This document shows, one piece after another, positions 8,520 to 18,211 of a stretch of DNA of 64,000 bases. This DNA is from Nitrospira sp. (lineage in GTDB: Bacteria; Nitrospirota; Nitrospiria; Nitrospirales; Nitrospiraceae). The stretch covers positions 124,001-188,000 of the forward strand of contig JARFXR010000003.1 of assembly GCA_029194535.1 (NCBI GenBank). The letters run 5' to 3'. The notes under the pieces were generated by a model. It ran no database searches, was not told the DNA's origin, and was given only the letters and a program-made list of their open reading frames with translations. Position 1 is the first letter of the stretch, and every line of letters begins with the position of its first letter. The position numbers were made by a program, and so were the translations under genes.

Positions 8520-9527
8520 ATGTTGCCAGCCTTCGTTGTGCTGTTCGTCAGCCTCTGCATGATACCGCCGGCCTCGGCATCCGGTGGACATGACGCGCAC
8601 GATCACCACGCCGTTCCCACGCTGGCCAATCAAGTCACGACGAAGGTCACGATCGAAGACGATCTGGTCAGGCTGACGTTCGGGCCGATCGACCTGCCGT
8701 CGGCCCATGACGGCGACTTGGCCGCTTCCATGCCCAAGCATGTCTTTCAACTACCGAAGGACATGTATATGGTCGGATTCAAGTCCGAAGTCTTCACCAA
8801 AGACGGCACCCCGTTGCCCCGCAACTATTTGCATCATATCCTGATGCTCAACAACGATAAACCGAGCGTGTCCTGTCCCGGTGAGCCGTTGTTCTTCGGC
8901 GGTGCCGGTCTCGAAATGACCGAGGCGAAGTTCCCCGACGGCTACGGGGTGAAACTGGCCAAAGGCCAGAATCTCATGTCGGTCGTCGCCTTCTATCACA
9001 AGGCCCCACCCACGCGGGACGTGATGGCCAGCTTTACGATGTACATGGCTCGTGAGGACGCTCCGATTCAGGAGATGGACGTGTATCAAGTCGGCGTGAA
9101 CGTGGTCTGTTACAGCAAGTTCGCCCAGCGCGGTCCCGATCAGACCGATGAAGGCATCGAGATCAAGCCGGGCGTCCAAGTCCATGCCGCCCCGCTGAAG
9201 TTTTCGATGGATGGTTGCGTTAAATTCGCCTATCCCCACGGACATGATGAATTGCTGTTGATCGCGTTGGAAAACAAGACTCGCATGGAGACCTTGTTAC
9301 GAACCGTTCCCGATGTCTCCATGGACGGCACCTTCCTGGAGTTTCCTCCGCACCAGGTCTACAAGAACGGCCAAGGGTTTCCGGTGACGAAAACGGACGA
9401 TTACGAGATGGTGATGGTCCATCATCATCCACTTCAGAAGAAAGAGGACCAGCACGGCATGGGCAACTATCTCCTGTACATGACTCCCGGTGCCTGTCCT
9501 GGCCCCAGCACGGCACAAGTCCGATAG
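8520..9527 (+). CDS. Secreted His-rich protein, possibly PHM/Nod19-like fold
   Basis: 335 aa with a clear signal peptide cut after PASAS. The mature N-terminus is His-rich (GGHDAHDHHAV). Further metal-ligand-like clusters are YLHHILML near residue 103 and MVMVHHHPLQ near residue 305. The order HHxxxL, later Cys, then VAFYHKAP recalls the two-domain fold of copper type II ascorbate-dependent monooxygenases and the plant Nod19 family; this is inference, and not all copper ligands can be assigned. The ribosome site TAGGAGG before the ATG is strong, so good expression is likely. Confidence 0.6.
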   Translation: MLPAFVVLFVSLCMIPPASASGGHDAHDHHAVPTLANQVTTKVTIEDDLVRLTFGPIDLPSAHDGDLAASMPKHVFQLPKDMYMVGFKSEVFTKDGTPLPRNYLHHILMLNNDKPSVSCPGEPLFFGGAGLEMTEAKFPDGYGVKLAKGQNLMSVVAFYHKAPPTRDVMASFTMYMAREDAPIQEMDVYQVGVNVVCYSKFAQRGPDQTDEGIEIKPGVQVHAAPLKFSMDGCVKFAYPHGHDELLLIALENKTRMETLLRTVPDVSMDGTFLEFPPHQVYKNGQGFPVTKTDDYEMVMVHHHPLQKKEDQHGMGNYLLYMTPGACPGPSTAQVR

Positions 9528-9859: not shown

Positions 9860-12800
9860 ATGGCGCAGCGCATGCCGGTTTCGATCCTGATCGTCAACAG
9901 CCATCCTCAAGAGATCAAGCTCATCACGGTCGGTTTGCGCGGCTTTTTTTCTAACTGCCGAGTCGACGTCGCCTATTCCGCGGAGGAGGCCAGAGTCCTC
10001 TCTCAGACATACGCGATGGAATGGACTTTGATCGTCGTCGATGACGGATGTCTTCTCGGAAATGATCAGGGATTGATCGAAGAGCTCAAGCAGCAGGCCG
10101 CCCAAGCCTCGGTGATCCTACAAAGCGCTCAACCCGATACCGCCATGGCCGCTCACGCGATGCAGGCGGGCGCGGACTTTCTCCTATCGAAGCAATCTCC
10201 CGCGTTTCTCGCCGAGATCCTCTTCTGCGCCAGACAAGCATTGGAAAAGCAGGATCTCAAGATCGCCGTGGCACGCACGGAGGCGCGCTATCAACACCTG
10301 CTCGCCGCAATACCGGACATTTTCTATGAACTGAACGCCGACGGACAATTCGTGGCGCTCGGCTCGAACGTGTCGTTGTTGCTCGGTTATGCGCCGGAAG
10401 AACTCGTCGGCACACCCTATACCACGGTCTTTTCTCCGAAAGACCATGCAGCGGCCGCCTTCCGCTTCAACGAGCGGCGCTCCGGCTCCCGAACCACCCA
10501 AGGTATCGAGCTACTGTTTAGGGGAAAGCCCTCCGCAGACCAGCGCGAGAAAGTCGTGTCGGCGGAGGTGCGCGCGCGCGGTCTGTACGATCCGCACCGG
10601 CGCTTTCTGGGCACCATCGGGATCATCCGCAACCTGACCTCCGATCGAGCCGGGAGACATGCGGTTCAGGGCTCGATATCAGGAACAACCGGCGGTGACA
10701 TGCCTCGGACGGTTATTCACCAGTTCATCTCGCTGTCCGAGGAGATCGTCCGACCATTGGAAGCACTGCGTCAGGAGGCCCAGATCCTCCTGGACACCGT
10801 ACGTTCCGCCAATCTGGAAGACAAGTTGGTTGGTCTTGTCGAACAATCGACTGCCGCCGGCACCCTGCGGAACCGGCTTGTCGAGCTTATGCACACGACG
10901 GCTGAGCAATCCGCAGTCGGACGTACTATCAACGACCTCATTGAAGATGCGTTGGCGTCCTTGGCCGTTCACAGCGCCTGGCCGCTCACCGTCACGACGG
11001 ACTATGCCTCCCAGTTGCCGTTGTTTTCAGGCGATCATGTGCAGACCGTCGAGTGTTTGCGTCAACTGCTGTCGGCCGTGCGAACCATGCTGGCCGCCAG
11101 CGGGCGGAGTCGCACGCTGGGTATTCGCACAGGCGTGGTCGGTCAAGCGGCAGAAGGAGCCGGTCCTGTGCTGTTCGCCCTACCCCCTCAGAGTGAAATC
11201 GAAATCGAATGTCTTGAGTCGGAAACCTCTCCCACGGAACAACCAGACAGAGCCGCTCAGCCGGATACACCGGATACGGTAGACTGGCCTGTTCTCTACG
11301 GTCTGGTTTCTTCACTGGGCGGCAGGTTGGACTTCTCTCTCCCCGCGACCGGGCCGCTTCGCGTCGTCATGCGTCTTCCCATAATCGCCGGAACACCGTC
11401 GGCCGAGGCCATCAAATCCGTTCCCATCACGCGCCGACGAGTCGAGGAGGACCGCCCATTGCCCCTCGCGCACCAGCGCGACGAAAAGGATCGCAGGGCC
11501 GCTCCGCGTGTCGTCGCCGCGCTGCCGGCCCGCGTGACCATCGGGTCGGCGGTCTGGCACGGCTCTCTCGTCAACTTGGGTCAGGGAGGCGCCTGTGTCA
11601 CTCTGGCCTCAGACTTCCCCTCTTTCGATCAGCAGGCTGTTCAAGTCGTGCTGCGGACCATGGTCGGTACGCTGGAACTGGCCGCCTCGGCCGTCCCGCG
11701 CCAGGCCATCGATACGGCGAGGACGCAAGGAACACCGCCCGTTCGCCTGATTCTGATCTTCGAAGCGCCCAGTGATACGGAATCCTCTATTCTGGCGTCG
11801 TTGATCGAGGCCGCCCGAGAACAGTCGCTGAGCTTTTCCGTCGATGTCCAACTGACATCGACCACGGGAGATCGCGTATCTTCGGTACCCTATGGCGACG
11901 ACCGACGGGAAACCGTACGGGTACCGTTGGTCCTTCCCGCTCGACTGGAAACGGAGCCGGCCGGGCAGGACCGTTTGATCGCCCGGGTGGTGGACATCAG
12001 CCGTCAAGGAGCGTACCTCGTCGTCAACGCCAGCCCCGACCGGCTTCAGGACTCTATGCTCCTCCACTTCGCTTCCGGAAAAATTTCGAGCCATTCGGGC
12101 CCTCACGAATCGGGTCCGCCGGACTTTTCCTTGCCGGTGAAGATCATCTGGTCGGCTCCGGATGTCGGCGCTTCGAGCGAGTTGCAACCGAGCCACGTCG
12201 CTCCAGCCATGCACGTCGGGGTCGGCTTCCTGCCGCTCACTCCCTATGCCGAGCGCGAATTGGCTCGCCTCGTTCGGCAACACCTTTCGGCGCCTCCCCT
12301 CACAAGAACTCGCGGCGAAACATCGATCGTCAGCATTCAACGGCAATGCCGAACTGCCCGAGGTCAGACCATCGTTATCGTCGACGATCATCTTGGACGG
12401 CCGATGGCGTCGGACGTTCCGGTGCTGATCATCGCACCAGGCTACGGTCAAACGTCGCGCGACTATGCCGGCCTGTCGTATTTTCTGCTGAGTCAGGGGC
12501 TGCGCGTGCTGCGTTACGACCATGCCAATCACCTCGGTCTGAGCGACGGGGAGCCGCAGAACACGACGCTACGAGGCATGCAAGCTGATCTCGTCAAAGT
12601 CGTCGAGTTCGTCCACCACACCTGGCCATCTGCCCGCGTCGCGGTCTTGGCCAGCGATCTGAGCGCTCGAGCGGCGTTGAAGATGACGGTTCAGACGCAT
12701 CCGCTCGACTTACTGATGCTCCTGAATCCCGTCGTCGACGTCGGAGTTGCCCTGATGGCCGTCCATGGACACGATTTGATCGCGGATTATCGCTATGGCC

Positions 12801-14020
12801 TGCGGCGCGGGACCACAAATCTCATGGGCCTCAACGTCAATATTGACCAATTCGTGGCCGACGCCATTGCAGGCCGCATGACGGACCTTGGCTCCACTCT
12901 TGAGGACATCCGCCTCCTGCATTCTCCGCTCGCGATCATCAGCGGTCCACGGAACGAAGAAAGCCCGCTTCCTCCCTCGGATCTTCCGCATGATTTCCTG
13001 AGCGCCCTCAGCAGCCAGACACGGATCATCAGCATTCCGTCCCCCATCGCCGCCCGGTTCCATGCCGATGAGACGGAGTCCGCGGCATTCCGACAGATCC
13101 TCGAGCACATCACGGTCGCGCTGTCATGGCACCCGGTCTCCACCGACCTCGGTCCCGCGACCTCGGAGGGGCTTGCGCGCCAGCTCCGCTTGGAGTTGGA
13201 ACAGACTCGCTTGCATCGCAACGTATCCCAGGTCAACCGCGACGCGCTGGGATTGGCCCATCTGCAACAACTGCCTCACCTCGCCAATGTTCATGAATAC
13301 CGGAAACTCCTGGATGATCTGCATGTCCTCCTCACCCCGCTGTCCCCGGAAACGATCGTCGTGGACGCGGGTCTCGGACAGAGCGACATGACTCGGACGA
13401 TACTGGTCAACCACTCCTATTGGACGAAGCAAATGATGCAGTCTCCGGAACAGGCCCCGCTCCTCATCGGATTGGGGCGCGATGCGGACCACGTACGGCA
13501 GGCGCGGCACCAGACAGTCCTACTGCAGCGAGAACTGGCCGGCGGAAAAGGCGGAGGGCTCACATCGATTCCTGCGATGAAATGCGCGTGGATGCGCACG
13601 GATTGGGCGCAGGCGCTGCCGTTCCGTTCGCAGTCGGTACACCGTATCGTCTGCAATCTCTCGTTGTCCTTTGTCAACTCGCCACATGCCGCACTTCGCG
13701 ACTGGATCAGGGTGCTCCATCCGCAAGGCCGTCTCGTCTTTACGACGTTTCATTTTGACACGGACCTTTCTACCCTCTACCGACGACACCTCCGGCTGGC
13801 GAACCAGGATGAGTTCGGCGCGCAGCCTCAAGGCGTCCTCCACTACCTTGCGCGTCTGCGCGAAGCCATACGTCATGGCATCCTCCATACCTTCGATCAC
13901 CACGCCCTGGCCTCTCTGCTGCGCCAGTGCGGGGCCCAGCCGTTTCGCATCAGTTCGATCTTCAATGGTCAAGCCCTAGTCGCCGTCGTAGGAAAACGGA
14001 TTTCCTCTAGCTCCTTCTAG
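9860..14020 (+). CDS. Receiver-PAS-pseudokinase-PilZ-PilZ-LuxD-like-BioC-like protein
   Basis: 1386 aa, seven modules in one frame. Residues 1-130: receiver-like, with the usual acidic pair replaced (VNSHPQE) but IVVDDG and a conserved Lys kept. About 140-260: PAS (AAIPDIFYELNADG). About 285-515: histidine-kinase-like but degenerate, with Glu294 where the phospho-His should be and no clear ATP boxes. About 545-650: PilZ with RxxxR but a weakened second motif (NLGQGG). About 682-810: PilZ with both RxxxR and DISRQG, the c-di-GMP pattern. About 830-1100: alpha/beta hydrolase closely resembling LuxD acyl-ACP thioesterase (RYDHANHLGLSDG), with Asp933 at the Ser nucleophile position. About 1140-1386: SAM methyltransferase resembling BioC (VDAGLGQSD, LPFRSQSV, RVLHPQGRLVFTTF). 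Product unknown; a c-di-GMP-gated acyl-chain enzyme is a hypothesis. No membrane segment seen. First gene of the signalling block. Confidence 0.85.
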   Translation: MAQRMPVSILIVNSHPQEIKLITVGLRGFFSNCRVDVAYSAEEARVLSQTYAMEWTLIVVDDGCLLGNDQGLIEELKQQAAQASVILQSAQPDTAMAAHAMQAGADFLLSKQSPAFLAEILFCARQALEKQDLKIAVARTEARYQHLLAAIPDIFYELNADGQFVALGSNVSLLLGYAPEELVGTPYTTVFSPKDHAAAAFRFNERRSGSRTTQGIELLFRGKPSADQREKVVSAEVRARGLYDPHRRFLGTIGIIRNLTSDRAGRHAVQGSISGTTGGDMPRTVIHQFISLSEEIVRPLEALRQEAQILLDTVRSANLEDKLVGLVEQSTAAGTLRNRLVELMHTTAEQSAVGRTINDLIEDALASLAVHSAWPLTVTTDYASQLPLFSGDHVQTVECLRQLLSAVRTMLAASGRSRTLGIRTGVVGQAAEGAGPVLFALPPQSEIEIECLESETSPTEQPDRAAQPDTPDTVDWPVLYGLVSSLGGRLDFSLPATGPLRVVMRLPIIAGTPSAEAIKSVPITRRRVEEDRPLPLAHQRDEKDRRAAPRVVAALPARVTIGSAVWHGSLVNLGQGGACVTLASDFPSFDQQAVQVVLRTMVGTLELAASAVPRQAIDTARTQGTPPVRLILIFEAPSDTESSILASLIEAAREQSLSFSVDVQLTSTTGDRVSSVPYGDDRRETVRVPLVLPARLETEPAGQDRLIARVVDISRQGAYLVVNASPDRLQDSMLLHFASGKISSHSGPHESGPPDFSLPVKIIWSAPDVGASSELQPSHVAPAMHVGVGFLPLTPYAERELARLVRQHLSAPPLTRTRGETSIVSIQRQCRTARGQTIVIVDDHLGRPMASDVPVLIIAPGYGQTSRDYAGLSYFLLSQGLRVLRYDHANHLGLSDGEPQNTTLRGMQADLVKVVEFVHHTWPSARVAVLASDLSARAALKMTVQTHPLDLLMLLNPVVDVGVALMAVHGHDLIADYRYGLRRGTTNLMGLNVNIDQFVADAIAGRMTDLGSTLEDIRLLHSPLAIISGPRNEESPLPPSDLPHDFLSALSSQTRIISIPSPIAARFHADETESAAFRQILEHITVALSWHPVSTDLGPATSEGLARQLRLELEQTRLHRNVSQVNRDALGLAHLQQLPHLANVHEYRKLLDDLHVLLTPLSPETIVVDAGLGQSDMTRTILVNHSYWTKQMMQSPEQAPLLIGLGRDADHVRQARHQTVLLQRELAGGKGGGLTSIPAMKCAWMRTDWAQALPFRSQSVHRIVCNLSLSFVNSPHAALRDWIRVLHPQGRLVFTTFHFDTDLSTLYRRHLRLANQDEFGAQPQGVLHYLARLREAIRHGILHTFDHHALASLLRQCGAQPFRISSIFNGQALVAVVGKRISSSSF

Positions 14021-14120: not shown

Positions 14121-15398
14121 ATGTCGATACGACCTGCGAATCCCGCATCGGACAGTTTCCCGACCACTGAATTTCTCGATCAGCTGACACGATTTTCCAT
14201 CGACTTGGGCGCCATGACCGATTTGGGTCCCTTGAGCAGGCGCGCCATCCAAGAACTCTGTCGAGTGGGAGGCGCAACACAAGGGGCTCTTTATCTTCTC
14301 GACCGGGAGCATGAACATTACCGTCGAGCAGCTGCGACGGACTCATCGACGGCACTCAGGTTTCCCGAATCCATAGCCTTGGACCATCCGATCCCGCATC
14401 GACTGGCGTCGCCGCAAGCGGAGGTGGCCCCGCATCATTCTCCCACCTCCGGTGGATCATTCGCCCTCGAATCTTCCGACGAGCCAACGTTGGTGGCCAT
14501 GGGCATGGCGCTTGCGCTGCCACATATCAGCCGCGGACAGTTGATCGCGTTTTCCTTGTTGGACTCGGCACAGCCTCGCGGTCACGAGGCCTCGTCTGTC
14601 CGTGCGCTGTTGGCCGTCCTGACACAAACGGCGACGAATGCGGTTGATCGACTGATGCTCTATGAAGACCTGCACCGTTCCCACCTGCTCATGAAACGAA
14701 CGGACCGCCTCAAGTCATTGGAGACGATCGCCGGCGGATTCGCTCACGAGATCCGCAATCCCTTAACCTCCATCAAGACCTTCATCCAACTGGCTCCCGA
14801 GCGCAAGGACGACCCGGACTTCATACGGGACTTTAGCCGTATCGTGCTCGACGACGTGTACCGGATCGAACGACTCATCGACGAGATCCTCGACTACGCA
14901 CGATACATGGAACCCAAACTCACTGAAGAAGACATCAACGATATCGTGTCGTCCTGTCTCTACTTCATCGAGGTCAAGGCCGACACCAAAGGGATCAAGA
15001 TCGAAAAAGAGTTGGCGTCGAATCTGCCTCGTGTCATGCTGGATCGTCAACAAGTCAAGCAAGTCTTCTTGAATCTATTCTTGAACGCCCTGGACGCCAT
15101 GGGAACAGAGGGCGGCTTTCTGCGCGTCCGCACGAAACTCTTGAACAGACCCGGCGGAAGAGTTTGGGTGCAAGTGGAAACAGAGGATACCGGAGAAGGT
15201 ATTCCGGAAGGCAATCTCGAGCACATCTTCGATCCGTTTTTCACAACCAAGCACGAAAGCGGCGAACACGAAGGGACCGGGCTCGGATTGACGATCGTGC
15301 ACCAGATCATCCAGGAGCATCGTGGTGAGATCCAAGTCCGCAGTGTGCCGGGACAAGGAACGACGTTTCTCGTGAACCTGCCCGCCCTGTCGTCATAA
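14121..15398 (+). CDS. GAF-domain sensor histidine kinase
   Basis: 425-aa cytosolic histidine kinase. Residues about 20-185 form a GAF-like sensor (RRAIQELCRVGGATQGALYLLDRE), a linker follows, and the HisKA box FAHEIRNPLTSI has the phospho-accepting His209. The ATPase domain has the N box (NLFLNALDAM), G1 (DTGEGIP), F (FDPFFTTK) and G2 (GTGLGLTIV) boxes, all intact. There are no membrane helices, so it senses a cytosolic cue. It is followed by an NtrC-type regulator after about 27 bases and is its likely partner. The upstream giant protein has a dead kinase module, so this may be the active kinase of the block. Confidence 0.93.
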   Translation: MSIRPANPASDSFPTTEFLDQLTRFSIDLGAMTDLGPLSRRAIQELCRVGGATQGALYLLDREHEHYRRAAATDSSTALRFPESIALDHPIPHRLASPQAEVAPHHSPTSGGSFALESSDEPTLVAMGMALALPHISRGQLIAFSLLDSAQPRGHEASSVRALLAVLTQTATNAVDRLMLYEDLHRSHLLMKRTDRLKSLETIAGGFAHEIRNPLTSIKTFIQLAPERKDDPDFIRDFSRIVLDDVYRIERLIDEILDYARYMEPKLTEEDINDIVSSCLYFIEVKADTKGIKIEKELASNLPRVMLDRQQVKQVFLNLFLNALDAMGTEGGFLRVRTKLLNRPGGRVWVQVETEDTGEGIPEGNLEHIFDPFFTTKHESGEHEGTGLGLTIVHQIIQEHRGEIQVRSVPGQGTTFLVNLPALSS

Positions 15399-15425
15399 CC
15401 GGCTAGAGACGGAGTGATTGCCAGC

Positions 15426-16841
15426 GTGAAAAAGCGAGTCCTTTTGATCGACGACGAATCGCGGGTTCGCGCATCCTTGAAGGCCGTCCTCGAACCTACC
15501 TACGAAGTCATCCAGGCCGCCGACGCACAGGAAGGGCTCGACCTCTACCATAAGGAAGCGCCCCACCTGATTCTCCTGGACGTGATTCTTCCCGGTACGG
15601 ACGGGCTGTCGGTACTCCAGTCGCTGCGGTCGGAAGACTGTCCGGCCCCCATCATCATGCTGACCGGCACAAAATCGGTGAAGACGGCCGTGGATGCCAT
15701 GAAGTTGGGAGCGGCGGATTACCTGTCCAAACCGTTCGACGCGGAAGAACTCCGCATCGTGGTGGACCGCGCGCTCAATTCCAAGGAGCTCGAGCGAGAG
15801 GTCCGGACCCTCCGGGCGCAAGTCACGCAGCGATACGCGTTTCACAACCTCATCGGGAAAAGCCGTCCGATGCAGGAGATTTACACCAAGATCGAGCAGG
15901 TCGCCGACAGCCGAACGACGGTGCTCATCACCGGCGACAGCGGAACCGGAAAAGAATTGGTCGCCAAAGCGCTGCACTTCAACAGCGGGAGGCGAGATCG
16001 TCCGTTCGTCGCGCTGAACTGTGCCGCGCTCCCCGAAACCCTGATCGAGAGCGAATTGTTCGGTCATGAAAAGGGGTCCTTCACGGACGCCACAGCCAGA
16101 CGAGTCGGCCAATTCGAACTGGCCAACAGCGGCACGCTGTTTCTGGATGAAATCGGCGACCTGAGCGCCATGACTCAAGCCAAGTTGCTTCGCGTCCTTC
16201 AAGAGCGGGAATTTACCCGGATCGGCGGTGTCCAGGCCATCAAGGTGGACGTCAGAATCGTGGCAGCAACCAACAAGAACCTCGAGGAGCTCGTCAGGAA
16301 AGGACAGTTTCGAGAGGATCTCTACTACCGCATCAACGTCATCGCGCTCTATCTTCCTCCGTTGCGGGATCGAGGCGAAGACGTCCCGTTGCTTGCCAGA
16401 CATTTTCTGTCGAAGCGTATCGAAGAGGATAACCGACCGCACCAAGAGTTCTCTAAGGACGCCATCGACCTCCTGACACGGTATCCGTGGCCCGGCAACG
16501 TCAGGGAGATGGAGAACATCATCGAACAGGCCTTCATATGGTCAAAAGGATCCGATAACGTCACCCCGGAGCACCTCCCGACGATCGTTCGTAACGACAG
16601 CCGCTCCTCGTCGTTACGCGACGATACCCTGGCAGGTCGTCTGTCTCTTGAAAAGGCCGTGATGGAGTTCGAGCGTGAGATCATTCTGGATGCCTTGAAA
16701 AAGAACAACTACATCCAAACTCACGCGGCGAACCAACTGGGCATCAGCCGCCGCATGCTGAAATATCGAATGGACACGCTGGGAATCGGCAGGCCGGACA
16801 GCGACAGCAGCGGTGAAGCGGACCCTCCTGTGCAGGAATAA
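15426..16841 (+). CDS. NtrC-family sigma-54-type response regulator
   Basis: 471 aa. Receiver domain (residues 1-120, phospho-acceptor Asp52, LIDDE start), AAA+ domain (about 140-375, Walker A GDSGTGKE, Walker B LFLDEIGDL) and a Fis-type helix-turn-helix at the C-terminus (NYIQTHAANQLGISRRMLKYR). The loop that contacts sigma-54, canonically GAFTGA, reads GSFTDA at residues 217-222. Such Gly-to-Asp variants occur in some regulators, so sigma-54 dependence is likely but not certain. The GTG at 15426 is preferred: GGAG at 15411-15414 is 11 bases before it but overlaps the alternative GTG at 15414. Likely partner of the kinase just upstream. Confidence 0.9.
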   Translation: MKKRVLLIDDESRVRASLKAVLEPTYEVIQAADAQEGLDLYHKEAPHLILLDVILPGTDGLSVLQSLRSEDCPAPIIMLTGTKSVKTAVDAMKLGAADYLSKPFDAEELRIVVDRALNSKELEREVRTLRAQVTQRYAFHNLIGKSRPMQEIYTKIEQVADSRTTVLITGDSGTGKELVAKALHFNSGRRDRPFVALNCAALPETLIESELFGHEKGSFTDATARRVGQFELANSGTLFLDEIGDLSAMTQAKLLRVLQEREFTRIGGVQAIKVDVRIVAATNKNLEELVRKGQFREDLYYRINVIALYLPPLRDRGEDVPLLARHFLSKRIEEDNRPHQEFSKDAIDLLTRYPWPGNVREMENIIEQAFIWSKGSDNVTPEHLPTIVRNDSRSSSLRDDTLAGRLSLEKAVMEFEREIILDALKKNNYIQTHAANQLGISRRMLKYRMDTLGIGRPDSDSSGEADPPVQE

Positions 16842-17044: not shown

Positions 17045-18211
17045 ATGAGACAACCGATGCACGTTGCGCTTCCAGAGAATACCTCGCAGGCCAAGCCAAC
17101 GGTACTCGTCGTCGACGACGAAGCTGGACCACGGGATGCGCTCAAAGTCATTTTGCGGCCTTTCTTTAATATTCAAGCAGCCGGATCGGCCCGAGCCGCG
17201 ATCGACGTCCTCAACTCGCAGCGGATCGACCTCATCACTCTCGATCAGAAACTGCCCGATCGCCAAGGTCTCGACCTGCTCCAAGAGATCAAGCATGACC
17301 ACGCAGATATCGAAGTCATCATTATAACTGGCTACGGGAGCCTCAAAGCCGCCATGGATGGGATCCGTCACGGGGCGGCTGGCTACCTCCTGAAGCCCTT
17401 TAATGTGACGGAGTTGGTCACCTTGGTGAACCAGACGCTTCACAAGAAACGACGCCTGGACTATCTCCGCCGCTTCGTGCAGTACCCGGAAGCGATGTGG
17501 GAGTCCGAAGCGTCCTGTGCCGCGACCTGGAACGAGATCCGGGCCGGCTATGCTGCAATCTGCCCCCAGCCGGATGAGACCGCCTCGGACGAAGGCGCAG
17601 ACTTCAGATCGCTGCTTCCCATGCTCTCCGACCTCCTTGAAGCCAAGGAACGGGAGCTGCTCAACCATTGCAGCCGGGTCAGCTTCTACGCCACGCTCCT
17701 CGCCAACCGGATGGACCTGACCGAAGGGGAGCAAAAGTCCCTGGCTCTCGGGGCCTTTCTTCACGACATTGGAAGAATAGTCGCCGGTCCCTGTCATTTT
17801 GCCGACGATGCGATTCGAAGCCTCGGCGGGACACAGGATCACACACGCCACACAGAACTCGGCGTCAGAATGATCGCACCGCTGGGCTTACCGGCGGAAG
17901 TGGGGCAAATTATCGGGTACCATCATGAACGGTGGGACGGAACCGGGTACCCTCACGGCTTACAGGGTGAGGGCATTCCGCTTCTCGCACGGATCGTGTG
18001 TCTGGCGCAGGCCTTCGACCACCTGACTGTAGAGTTACCGGACCGGAGTTCTCTTTCTCTGTACGAGGCCTGTGATTTCATCACCGCTCACACCGGCGAC
18101 TATTTCGACCCGACCTTGACCGCCCTGTTCGTCAGAGTGGTGCAGGAATGCCAAGCCTCCCTTCCAGCAATGGCGATCGCCACCAATCCATCGAGACCAC
18201 CTCACGCCTGA
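17045..18211 (+). CDS. HD-GYP response regulator (RpfG-like)
   Basis: 388 aa: receiver (residues about 18-135, Asp67 in LITLDQKLP), linker, then an HD-GYP phosphodiesterase domain (about 190-360) expected to hydrolyse c-di-GMP. The metal-binding HD pair is His240-Asp241 (FLHDIGR), and HHERWDGTGYPHG contains the GYP triplet at 301-303; both are intact. It is the only c-di-GMP-turnover gene in the window, near a protein with two PilZ domains. Its last codons overlap the tail of recN on the other strand by about 10 bases. Confidence 0.92.
   Translation: MRQPMHVALPENTSQAKPTVLVVDDEAGPRDALKVILRPFFNIQAAGSARAAIDVLNSQRIDLITLDQKLPDRQGLDLLQEIKHDHADIEVIIITGYGSLKAAMDGIRHGAAGYLLKPFNVTELVTLVNQTLHKKRRLDYLRRFVQYPEAMWESEASCAATWNEIRAGYAAICPQPDETASDEGADFRSLLPMLSDLLEAKERELLNHCSRVSFYATLLANRMDLTEGEQKSLALGAFLHDIGRIVAGPCHFADDAIRSLGGTQDHTRHTELGVRMIAPLGLPAEVGQIIGYHHERWDGTGYPHGLQGEGIPLLARIVCLAQAFDHLTVELPDRSSLSLYEACDFITAHTGDYFDPTLTALFVRVVQECQASLPAMAIATNPSRPPHA

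Follow-up and report, generated by a model that had tools for sequence, protein, structure and literature searches.

What is the function of a protein that joins sensory domains to a LuxD-like hydrolase and a methyltransferase in one frame? Signalling is poorly understood in Nitrospira, a group of major nitrite oxidisers, and the question is raised by a fusion gene located at 9860..14020 of the window, that is, of the whole 64,000-nucleotide stretch of Nitrospira sp. analysed here (assembly GCA_029194535.1, contig JARFXR010000003.1, positions 124,001 to 188,000); all window features given below lie on the forward (+) strand. A first-pass annotation of the letters alone had described receiver, PAS, kinase-like, two PilZ, LuxD-like and BioC-like modules in a single frame. 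The open reading frame starts with ATG, encodes 1386 residues and has zero internal stops, and the claimed order of domains was confirmed by Pfam, NCBIfam and the relatives as REC-PAS-degenerate kinase-PilZ-PilZ-pseudo-hydrolase-degenerate methyltransferase. The frame is real and is neither a chance nor a sequencing fusion, and the homology and domain architecture of the protein are near certain. LuxD, BioC and histidine kinase are used here as labels for folds, not for activities. On balance we favour the reading that the fusion is a regulatory pseudoenzyme linked to cyclic di-GMP (c-di-GMP), which would act on the adjacent GAF kinase and NtrC-type regulator; its pseudoenzyme status is well supported, and its function is what we infer from the evidence below.

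The LuxD-like alpha/beta-hydrolase domain occupies residues 830-1090 (12347..13129) and is predicted to be non-catalytic. Its relationship to LuxD, proposed in the first-pass annotation, was upheld by the Pfam family Acyl_transf_2/LuxD (PF02273) at residues 855-1026 (E 3e-14, 53 bits, cut-off 20.3). LuxD was also the top hydrolase match in NCBIfam (E 2e-14, 53.6 bits, far under the equivalog cut-off of 420), and the LuxD structure 1tht was matched by the window protein at E 5e-9 and by the profile of the window clade at E 4.5e-14. A profile of 19 relatives with intact active sites, the A2 profile, matched 1tht at E 2e-35 over about 280 residues, and hhalign aligned the window-clade profile, in which the triad is lost, with the intact profile over 550 columns at probability 100. 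By sequence homology over the hydrolase domain the protein belongs to the LuxD family; it lacks the LuxD equivalog score and the lux operon context, and no lux genes were found among the scanned neighbours of the fusion gene. The catalytic Ser, Asp and His of LuxD are in register with the invariant columns S104, D203 and H233 of the A2 profile. In the triad alignment these positions are occupied in the window protein by Asp933 (codon 12656..12658), Asn1032 (12953..12955) and Ala1065 (13052..13054), a change at 3/3 positions, while an intact S-D-H triad was found in 49 of 108 relatives. The motifs RYD..NH-GLS-G and ASDLSAR, earlier read as a detailed LuxD match, are indeed present, but the D of ASDLSAR stands at the position of the nucleophilic Ser and replaces it. 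Judged from these residues, canonical hydrolase chemistry has very probably been lost in the window protein. The hydrolase is also the best-conserved domain in comparison with the nearest relative, L006 (91% identity, ratio of nonsynonymous to synonymous substitution rates, dN/dS, 0.084), and its slow evolution indicates that the dead domain is needed. Within the triad-lost class, over 30 C-terminal positions show conservation of 98% or higher.

The C-terminal linker and class-I methyltransferase domain (residues 1110-1386, 13187..14017) is degenerate as well. Methyltransf_11 of Pfam was found at residues 1250-1294 (E 1e-6), and the NCBIfam BioC model matched weakly (E 2e-4, 21.3 bits against a cut-off of 184.95), no better than other class-I methyltransferase models such as UbiE and the ArsM type. 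The resemblance to BioC, a malonyl-acyl-carrier-protein (ACP) methyltransferase, is thus confined to the class-I S-adenosylmethionine (SAM) fold, and the label BioC-like was over-specific for a generic methyltransferase. The domain falls in the class-I fold family and lacks both the GxGxG form of motif I and the acid of strand 2: motif I reads DAGLGQS in the window and DAGCGNG in intact relatives, and the ribose-binding Asp at the end of strand 2, present in intact relatives, is replaced by Gly1206. Its identity to L006 is 82% (dN/dS 0.143). Other triad-lost branches often keep the strand-2 acid, so the loss is limited to a part of the clade that includes the window. Methyltransferase activity has probably disappeared from the window protein.

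A link to c-di-GMP, unlike enzyme activity, is supported by motifs in the protein. Two stretches were matched by Pfam PilZ, the best of them at residues 681-806 (11900..12277). This second PilZ domain (PilZ2) carries RETVR and DISRQG, the canonical RxxxR and [DN]xSxxG motifs of a PilZ c-di-GMP receptor, and is predicted to form a c-di-GMP site, which sustains the earlier proposal of such a link. Both motifs are intact in 50 of 55 triad-lost relatives, and we consider binding of c-di-GMP by PilZ2 likely, with good confidence.

The state of the triad goes together with the type of kinase encoded next to it. This was tabulated for 108 non-identical relatives, the kinase being counted where it was in view. 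Every intact-triad form (44 of 44) is followed immediately by a histidine kinase that carries a seven-transmembrane (7TM) sensor at its N-terminus, and in one case is fused to it; non-intact forms stand beside a short kinase without 7TM in 52 of 53 cases. The latter arrangement is that of the window, where the domain scan identified a GAF-HisKA-HATPase histidine kinase of 425 residues (14121..15398) with no transmembrane segments and no HisKA_7TM. Pfam detected one or two HisKA_7TM domains in the kinases beside the intact relatives L042, L045, L046, L048, L053 and L058. The fused case (L070:6383-11305) is a single 1641-residue frame in which PilZ-PilZ-hydrolase-methyltransferase continues into a 7TM histidine kinase. 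L042, L045 and L071 have the upstream secreted gene, the NtrC regulator and the REC-HD gene in common with the window, yet keep the intact triad and the 7TM kinase. One genus (g18) carries both forms, the triad-lost one with a short kinase at the syntenic locus and the intact one with a 7TM kinase elsewhere. No HisKA_7TM and no second copy of the fusion were found in the genome of the window, and some triad-lost genomes carry other HisKA_7TM proteins elsewhere. A functional link between the fusion and the adjacent kinase is, in our judgement, probable. As side observations, three of the kinases (L042:3543-6470, L045:10608-13535 and L046:1410-4421) are about 1000 residues long, with two tandem HisKA_7TM domains followed by GAF-HisKA-HATPase, and the intact g18 copy (L047:3220-4707) lies near a Pup-ligase gene and so outside the family's syntenic locus.

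The direction of change was read from the outgroups L166, L167, L168 and L169, which belong to three other families of the phylum. All of them kept S-D-H, and the three outgroup kinases that were scanned next to these genes all have 7TM, so the intact pair is ancestral. On the tree rooted with these outgroups the lost forms are nested and a single loss is enough to explain them; the forks concerned are weakly supported. The progression from S-D-H through N-D-H or D-D-H to D-x-x suggests that the nucleophile was lost first. As far as sequence can show, the window protein descends from a Nitrospirota fusion of a LuxD-like hydrolase and a methyltransferase whose gene immediately preceded that of a 7TM-receptor histidine kinase. 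The Nitrospira lineage has lost the triad and the 7TM receptor of the kinase, and the window's own branch also the SAM site; the pseudo-hydrolase remains under strong purifying selection and the c-di-GMP motif of PilZ2 is kept. More distantly related families of the phylum encode the core as a free-standing protein of about 550 residues (L166, L169). In both of these families its gene is immediately preceded by a ketoacyl synthase gene (L166:853-2088, L169:8930-10177), perhaps an ordinary fab gene, and in L166 a REC-HD-GYP protein is encoded downstream.

What did the ancestral module do? By analogy, the intact family is best read as a signal synthase with its receptor, following the logic of the Rpf and Phc systems. 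In the RpfF-RpfC-RpfG system of the diffusible signal factor (DSF), a membrane kinase, once activated by a fatty acid, drives an HD-GYP phosphodiesterase, and the REC domain of RpfC represses RpfF (PMC5391125). Outgroups and some relatives likewise join an acyl-processing enzyme, a multi-transmembrane histidine kinase and a REC-HD-GYP phosphodiesterase in one locus, and the restraint of the synthase by the REC domain of RpfC has its counterpart in a REC domain fused to the enzyme. RpfF is however a crotonase and not a LuxD-type hydrolase, and Rpf has no methyltransferase. The membrane receptor kinase of an Rpf-type circuit is present beside the intact-triad relatives; at the window locus a REC-HD-GYP phosphodiesterase is encoded, but the transmembrane receptor is missing and the enzyme is dead. 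In the PhcB-PhcS system of 3-hydroxy fatty-acid methyl ester quorum sensing, a methyltransferase signal synthase is encoded with its sensor kinase (PMC11960443). The present module resembles it by this description, and differs in having its methyltransferase joined to hydrolase and PilZ domains and, in the window copy, degraded. We tentatively regard the ancestral module as an acyl-signal synthase. The ancestral pair would have made and sensed a fatty-acyl or fatty-acyl-methyl-ester signal, with outputs via NtrC and/or REC-HD-GYP regulators, and the intact relatives would then provide a candidate signal/receptor pair of the fatty-acyl type in Nitrospirota.

Somewhat unlikely, in our estimation, is that the ancestral module was no signalling pair, the hydrolase-methyltransferase modifying lipids of the membrane or material of the cell wall and the 7TM kinase sensing the state of the envelope. 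A wide range of substrates is conceivable for both LuxD-like hydrolases and class-I methyltransferases, and in family f3 the kinase is adjacent with no adjacent response regulator, both of which would suit such a role. The tight one-to-one pairing, the gene overlap, the one fusion of enzyme and receptor kinase, the joint loss of triad and 7TM, and the logic shared with Rpf and Phc speak against it.

For the window protein itself, enzyme and receptor are gone, the fold is under selection and PilZ2 is intact, so a role as c-di-GMP-binding pseudoenzyme is the most likely one. Product-making would have ended, and the fusion would serve as intracellular sensor and adaptor. PilZ2 would bind c-di-GMP, the dead hydrolase pocket would perhaps hold an acyl ligand or acyl-carrier, and the fusion would tune the adjacent cytosolic GAF histidine kinase and hence the NtrC-type sigma54 regulator, while the neighbouring REC-HD-GYP protein would adjust c-di-GMP within the same circuit. 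A precedent for such a conversion is GID1 (PMC3531792), an alpha/beta-hydrolase turned into a hormone receptor by losing the His of its active site. Both are alpha/beta-hydrolases that lost catalytic residues, GID1 acting as a sensor; GID1 is a stand-alone plant protein that keeps Ser and Asp and lost only the His, and the two are related by fold superfamily only. The window branch would exemplify the change of a signal synthase into a pseudoenzyme regulator with simultaneous dismantling of its receptor. It is a more speculative proposal, which we hold with some doubt, that Nitrospirota possess an acyl-signal system of their own, composed of LuxD-like hydrolase/methyltransferase, 7TM kinase and c-di-GMP effectors with a synthase unrelated to Rpf, Phc and LuxI, and that in Nitrospira synthase and receptor were disarmed together to give a c-di-GMP-gated pseudoenzyme signalling directly to the former receptor kinase.

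Several points weigh against the regulatory pseudoenzyme. Loss of residues is no proof of inactivity, and the near-invariant Asp933 could reflect altered chemistry. Binding of c-di-GMP, of an acyl ligand and of the kinase by the fusion is putative. An AlphaFold2 run with only two sequences as input, the window protein and L035, gave a mean predicted local distance difference test (pLDDT) score of 39 and was uninformative. The co-segregation has one exception, L050, in which an N-D-H form has a 7TM kinase 2.1 kb away. The Fisher test on the raw counts (P 5e-27) is descriptive only and no phylogenetic test, since the relatives are non-independent. Triad loss needs one change on the tree and the correlation with the 7TM sensor may therefore rest on a single event; an independent-contrast test relating loss of the triad to loss of the 7TM sensor had only one contrast, so no phylogenetic P value can be attached to the correlation.

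Altered catalysis, with Asp933 serving as a genuine nucleophile in the manner of haloalkane dehalogenases and epoxide hydrolases, we consider improbable. Among relatives with a short kinase, 51 of 52 have Asp at this position, at identities down to about 28%, and L044 has Asp-Asp-His, a full Asp-nucleophile triad. The acid and His columns, on the other hand, vary freely in the window clade (N, P, S, T, K or A, and A, G, S, D or V, respectively). A fixed Asp933 beside two free columns implies selection on Asp933 and counts against a conserved Asp-nucleophile triad, and the triad-lost class has no other invariant His after the lid region, hence no base to resolve a covalent ester. Still less probable is an active enzyme that frees acyl groups from acyl-ACP and methylates them, so as to make or modify a lipid or acyl signal while being controlled by c-di-GMP and a two-component system, as the first-pass annotation had supposed. 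The fold of the domain, RYD..HxGxSxG, the nucleophile elbow and the D-W after the acid are those of the Vibrio myristoyl-ACP thioesterase LuxD (1tht; PF02273), and two outgroups have the ketoacyl synthase gene directly upstream. Unlike Vibrio LuxD, however, the window domain has Asp for the nucleophile and no acid or His, shares its polypeptide with sensory domains and a methyltransferase, and stands outside a lux operon. The changes at D933/N1032/A1065, in the SAM glycine motif and at Gly1206, together with the loss of the 7TM receptor from the adjacent kinase, speak against the making or modifying of an acyl product by this protein; for relatives with both sites intact and an adjacent 7TM receptor kinase the supposition is plausible, as is an acyl-signal role of the family. 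That the C-terminal half is a decaying, non-functional relic which persists only through its attachment to the PilZ and REC parts is the least credible, since joint degradation of REC acidic pair, H-box, triad and SAM motif is countered by the hydrolase being the slowest-evolving domain, the conserved C-terminal positions and the full-length, stop-free frame in about 49 genomes.

Two-component control is supported by the kinase and the sigma54 regulator that are conserved downstream, but the REC and kinase modules of the fusion itself look degenerate. The receiver-like domain (residues 9-113, 9884..10198; weak Pfam REC match, below cut-off) has N-S as its acidic pair, and the candidate phospho-acceptor Asp and the Lys are both there. 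It is followed by a PAS domain identified by Pfam (residues 143-257, 10286..10630) and by a degenerate histidine-kinase-like region (about residues 283-515, 10706..11404) recognised by alignment with relatives bearing an H-box. There the H-box reads LSEEIVRPL in place of HExxxPL (His to Glu), no N-box was recognisable, and Pfam found neither HisKA nor HATPase; the region thus lacks the H-box His and N-box Asn expected of an active histidine kinase. A few relatives retain the His, as in VAHELSSPL of L038 and LSHDLHAPL of L028. The first PilZ domain (about residues 543-665, 11486..11854) kept RxxxR, and its second motif is NxGxxG instead of [DN]xSxxG. The kinase-like region and the PilZ domains diverge faster from L006 than the hydrolase and methyltransferase do.

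The frame was also followed into related strains and the same architecture sought in other genomes: about 49 of 148 searched relatives carry the full-length fusion (about 1380-1430 residues, 28-77% identity) at the same chromosomal locus with no internal stops. Shorter relatives have lost REC-PAS or kinase parts and retained PilZ and/or hydrolase-methyltransferase. Among named records the nearest one is Nitrospira sp. CR1.3, which was the sole return of a named-genome scan with the fusion protein as query, with none beyond Nitrospira. No papers were returned by literature searches that combined LuxD with either PilZ or Nitrospira. A REC-PAS-PilZ-methyltransferase relative without any hydrolase was seen at a related locus (L066:6700-8913), and the gene of a distant PilZ-hydrolase-methyltransferase protein (L171:6914-10051) overlaps that of a hybrid histidine kinase without 7TM.

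The locus order common to the family is RNaseH_2, PP2C, SnoaL, secreted protein, fusion, histidine kinase, NtrC-type regulator, REC-HD and RecN-like. In the window, domain scans placed the NtrC/AtoC-type sigma54-dependent response regulator at 15414..16841 and the REC-HD-GYP protein, a predicted c-di-GMP phosphodiesterase with HHERWDGTGYP, at 17045..18211; the latter scored 180 bits with the NosR-family phosphodiesterase model against a cut-off of 400. The strict GYP pattern was not found in the REC-HD proteins of many syntenic relatives, and since the window has the canonical HHExxDGxGYP, phosphodiesterase activity may vary. Rfam and tRNA scans of the window gave no matches, and a sigma54 promoter scan gave chance-level matches with none near the operon. 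The XrtA/PEP-CTERM system (PrsK/PrsR) was considered and rejected, its models being matched by the 7TM kinases and NtrC in all cases below cut-off. The conserved secreted protein of unknown family encoded upstream (8520..9527), identified by neighbour scan and synteny, has no Pfam match and is 68-94% identical across all syntenic loci, above the conservation of the fusion; it has the His motifs NYLHHILM and VMVHHHP and is possibly metal-binding.

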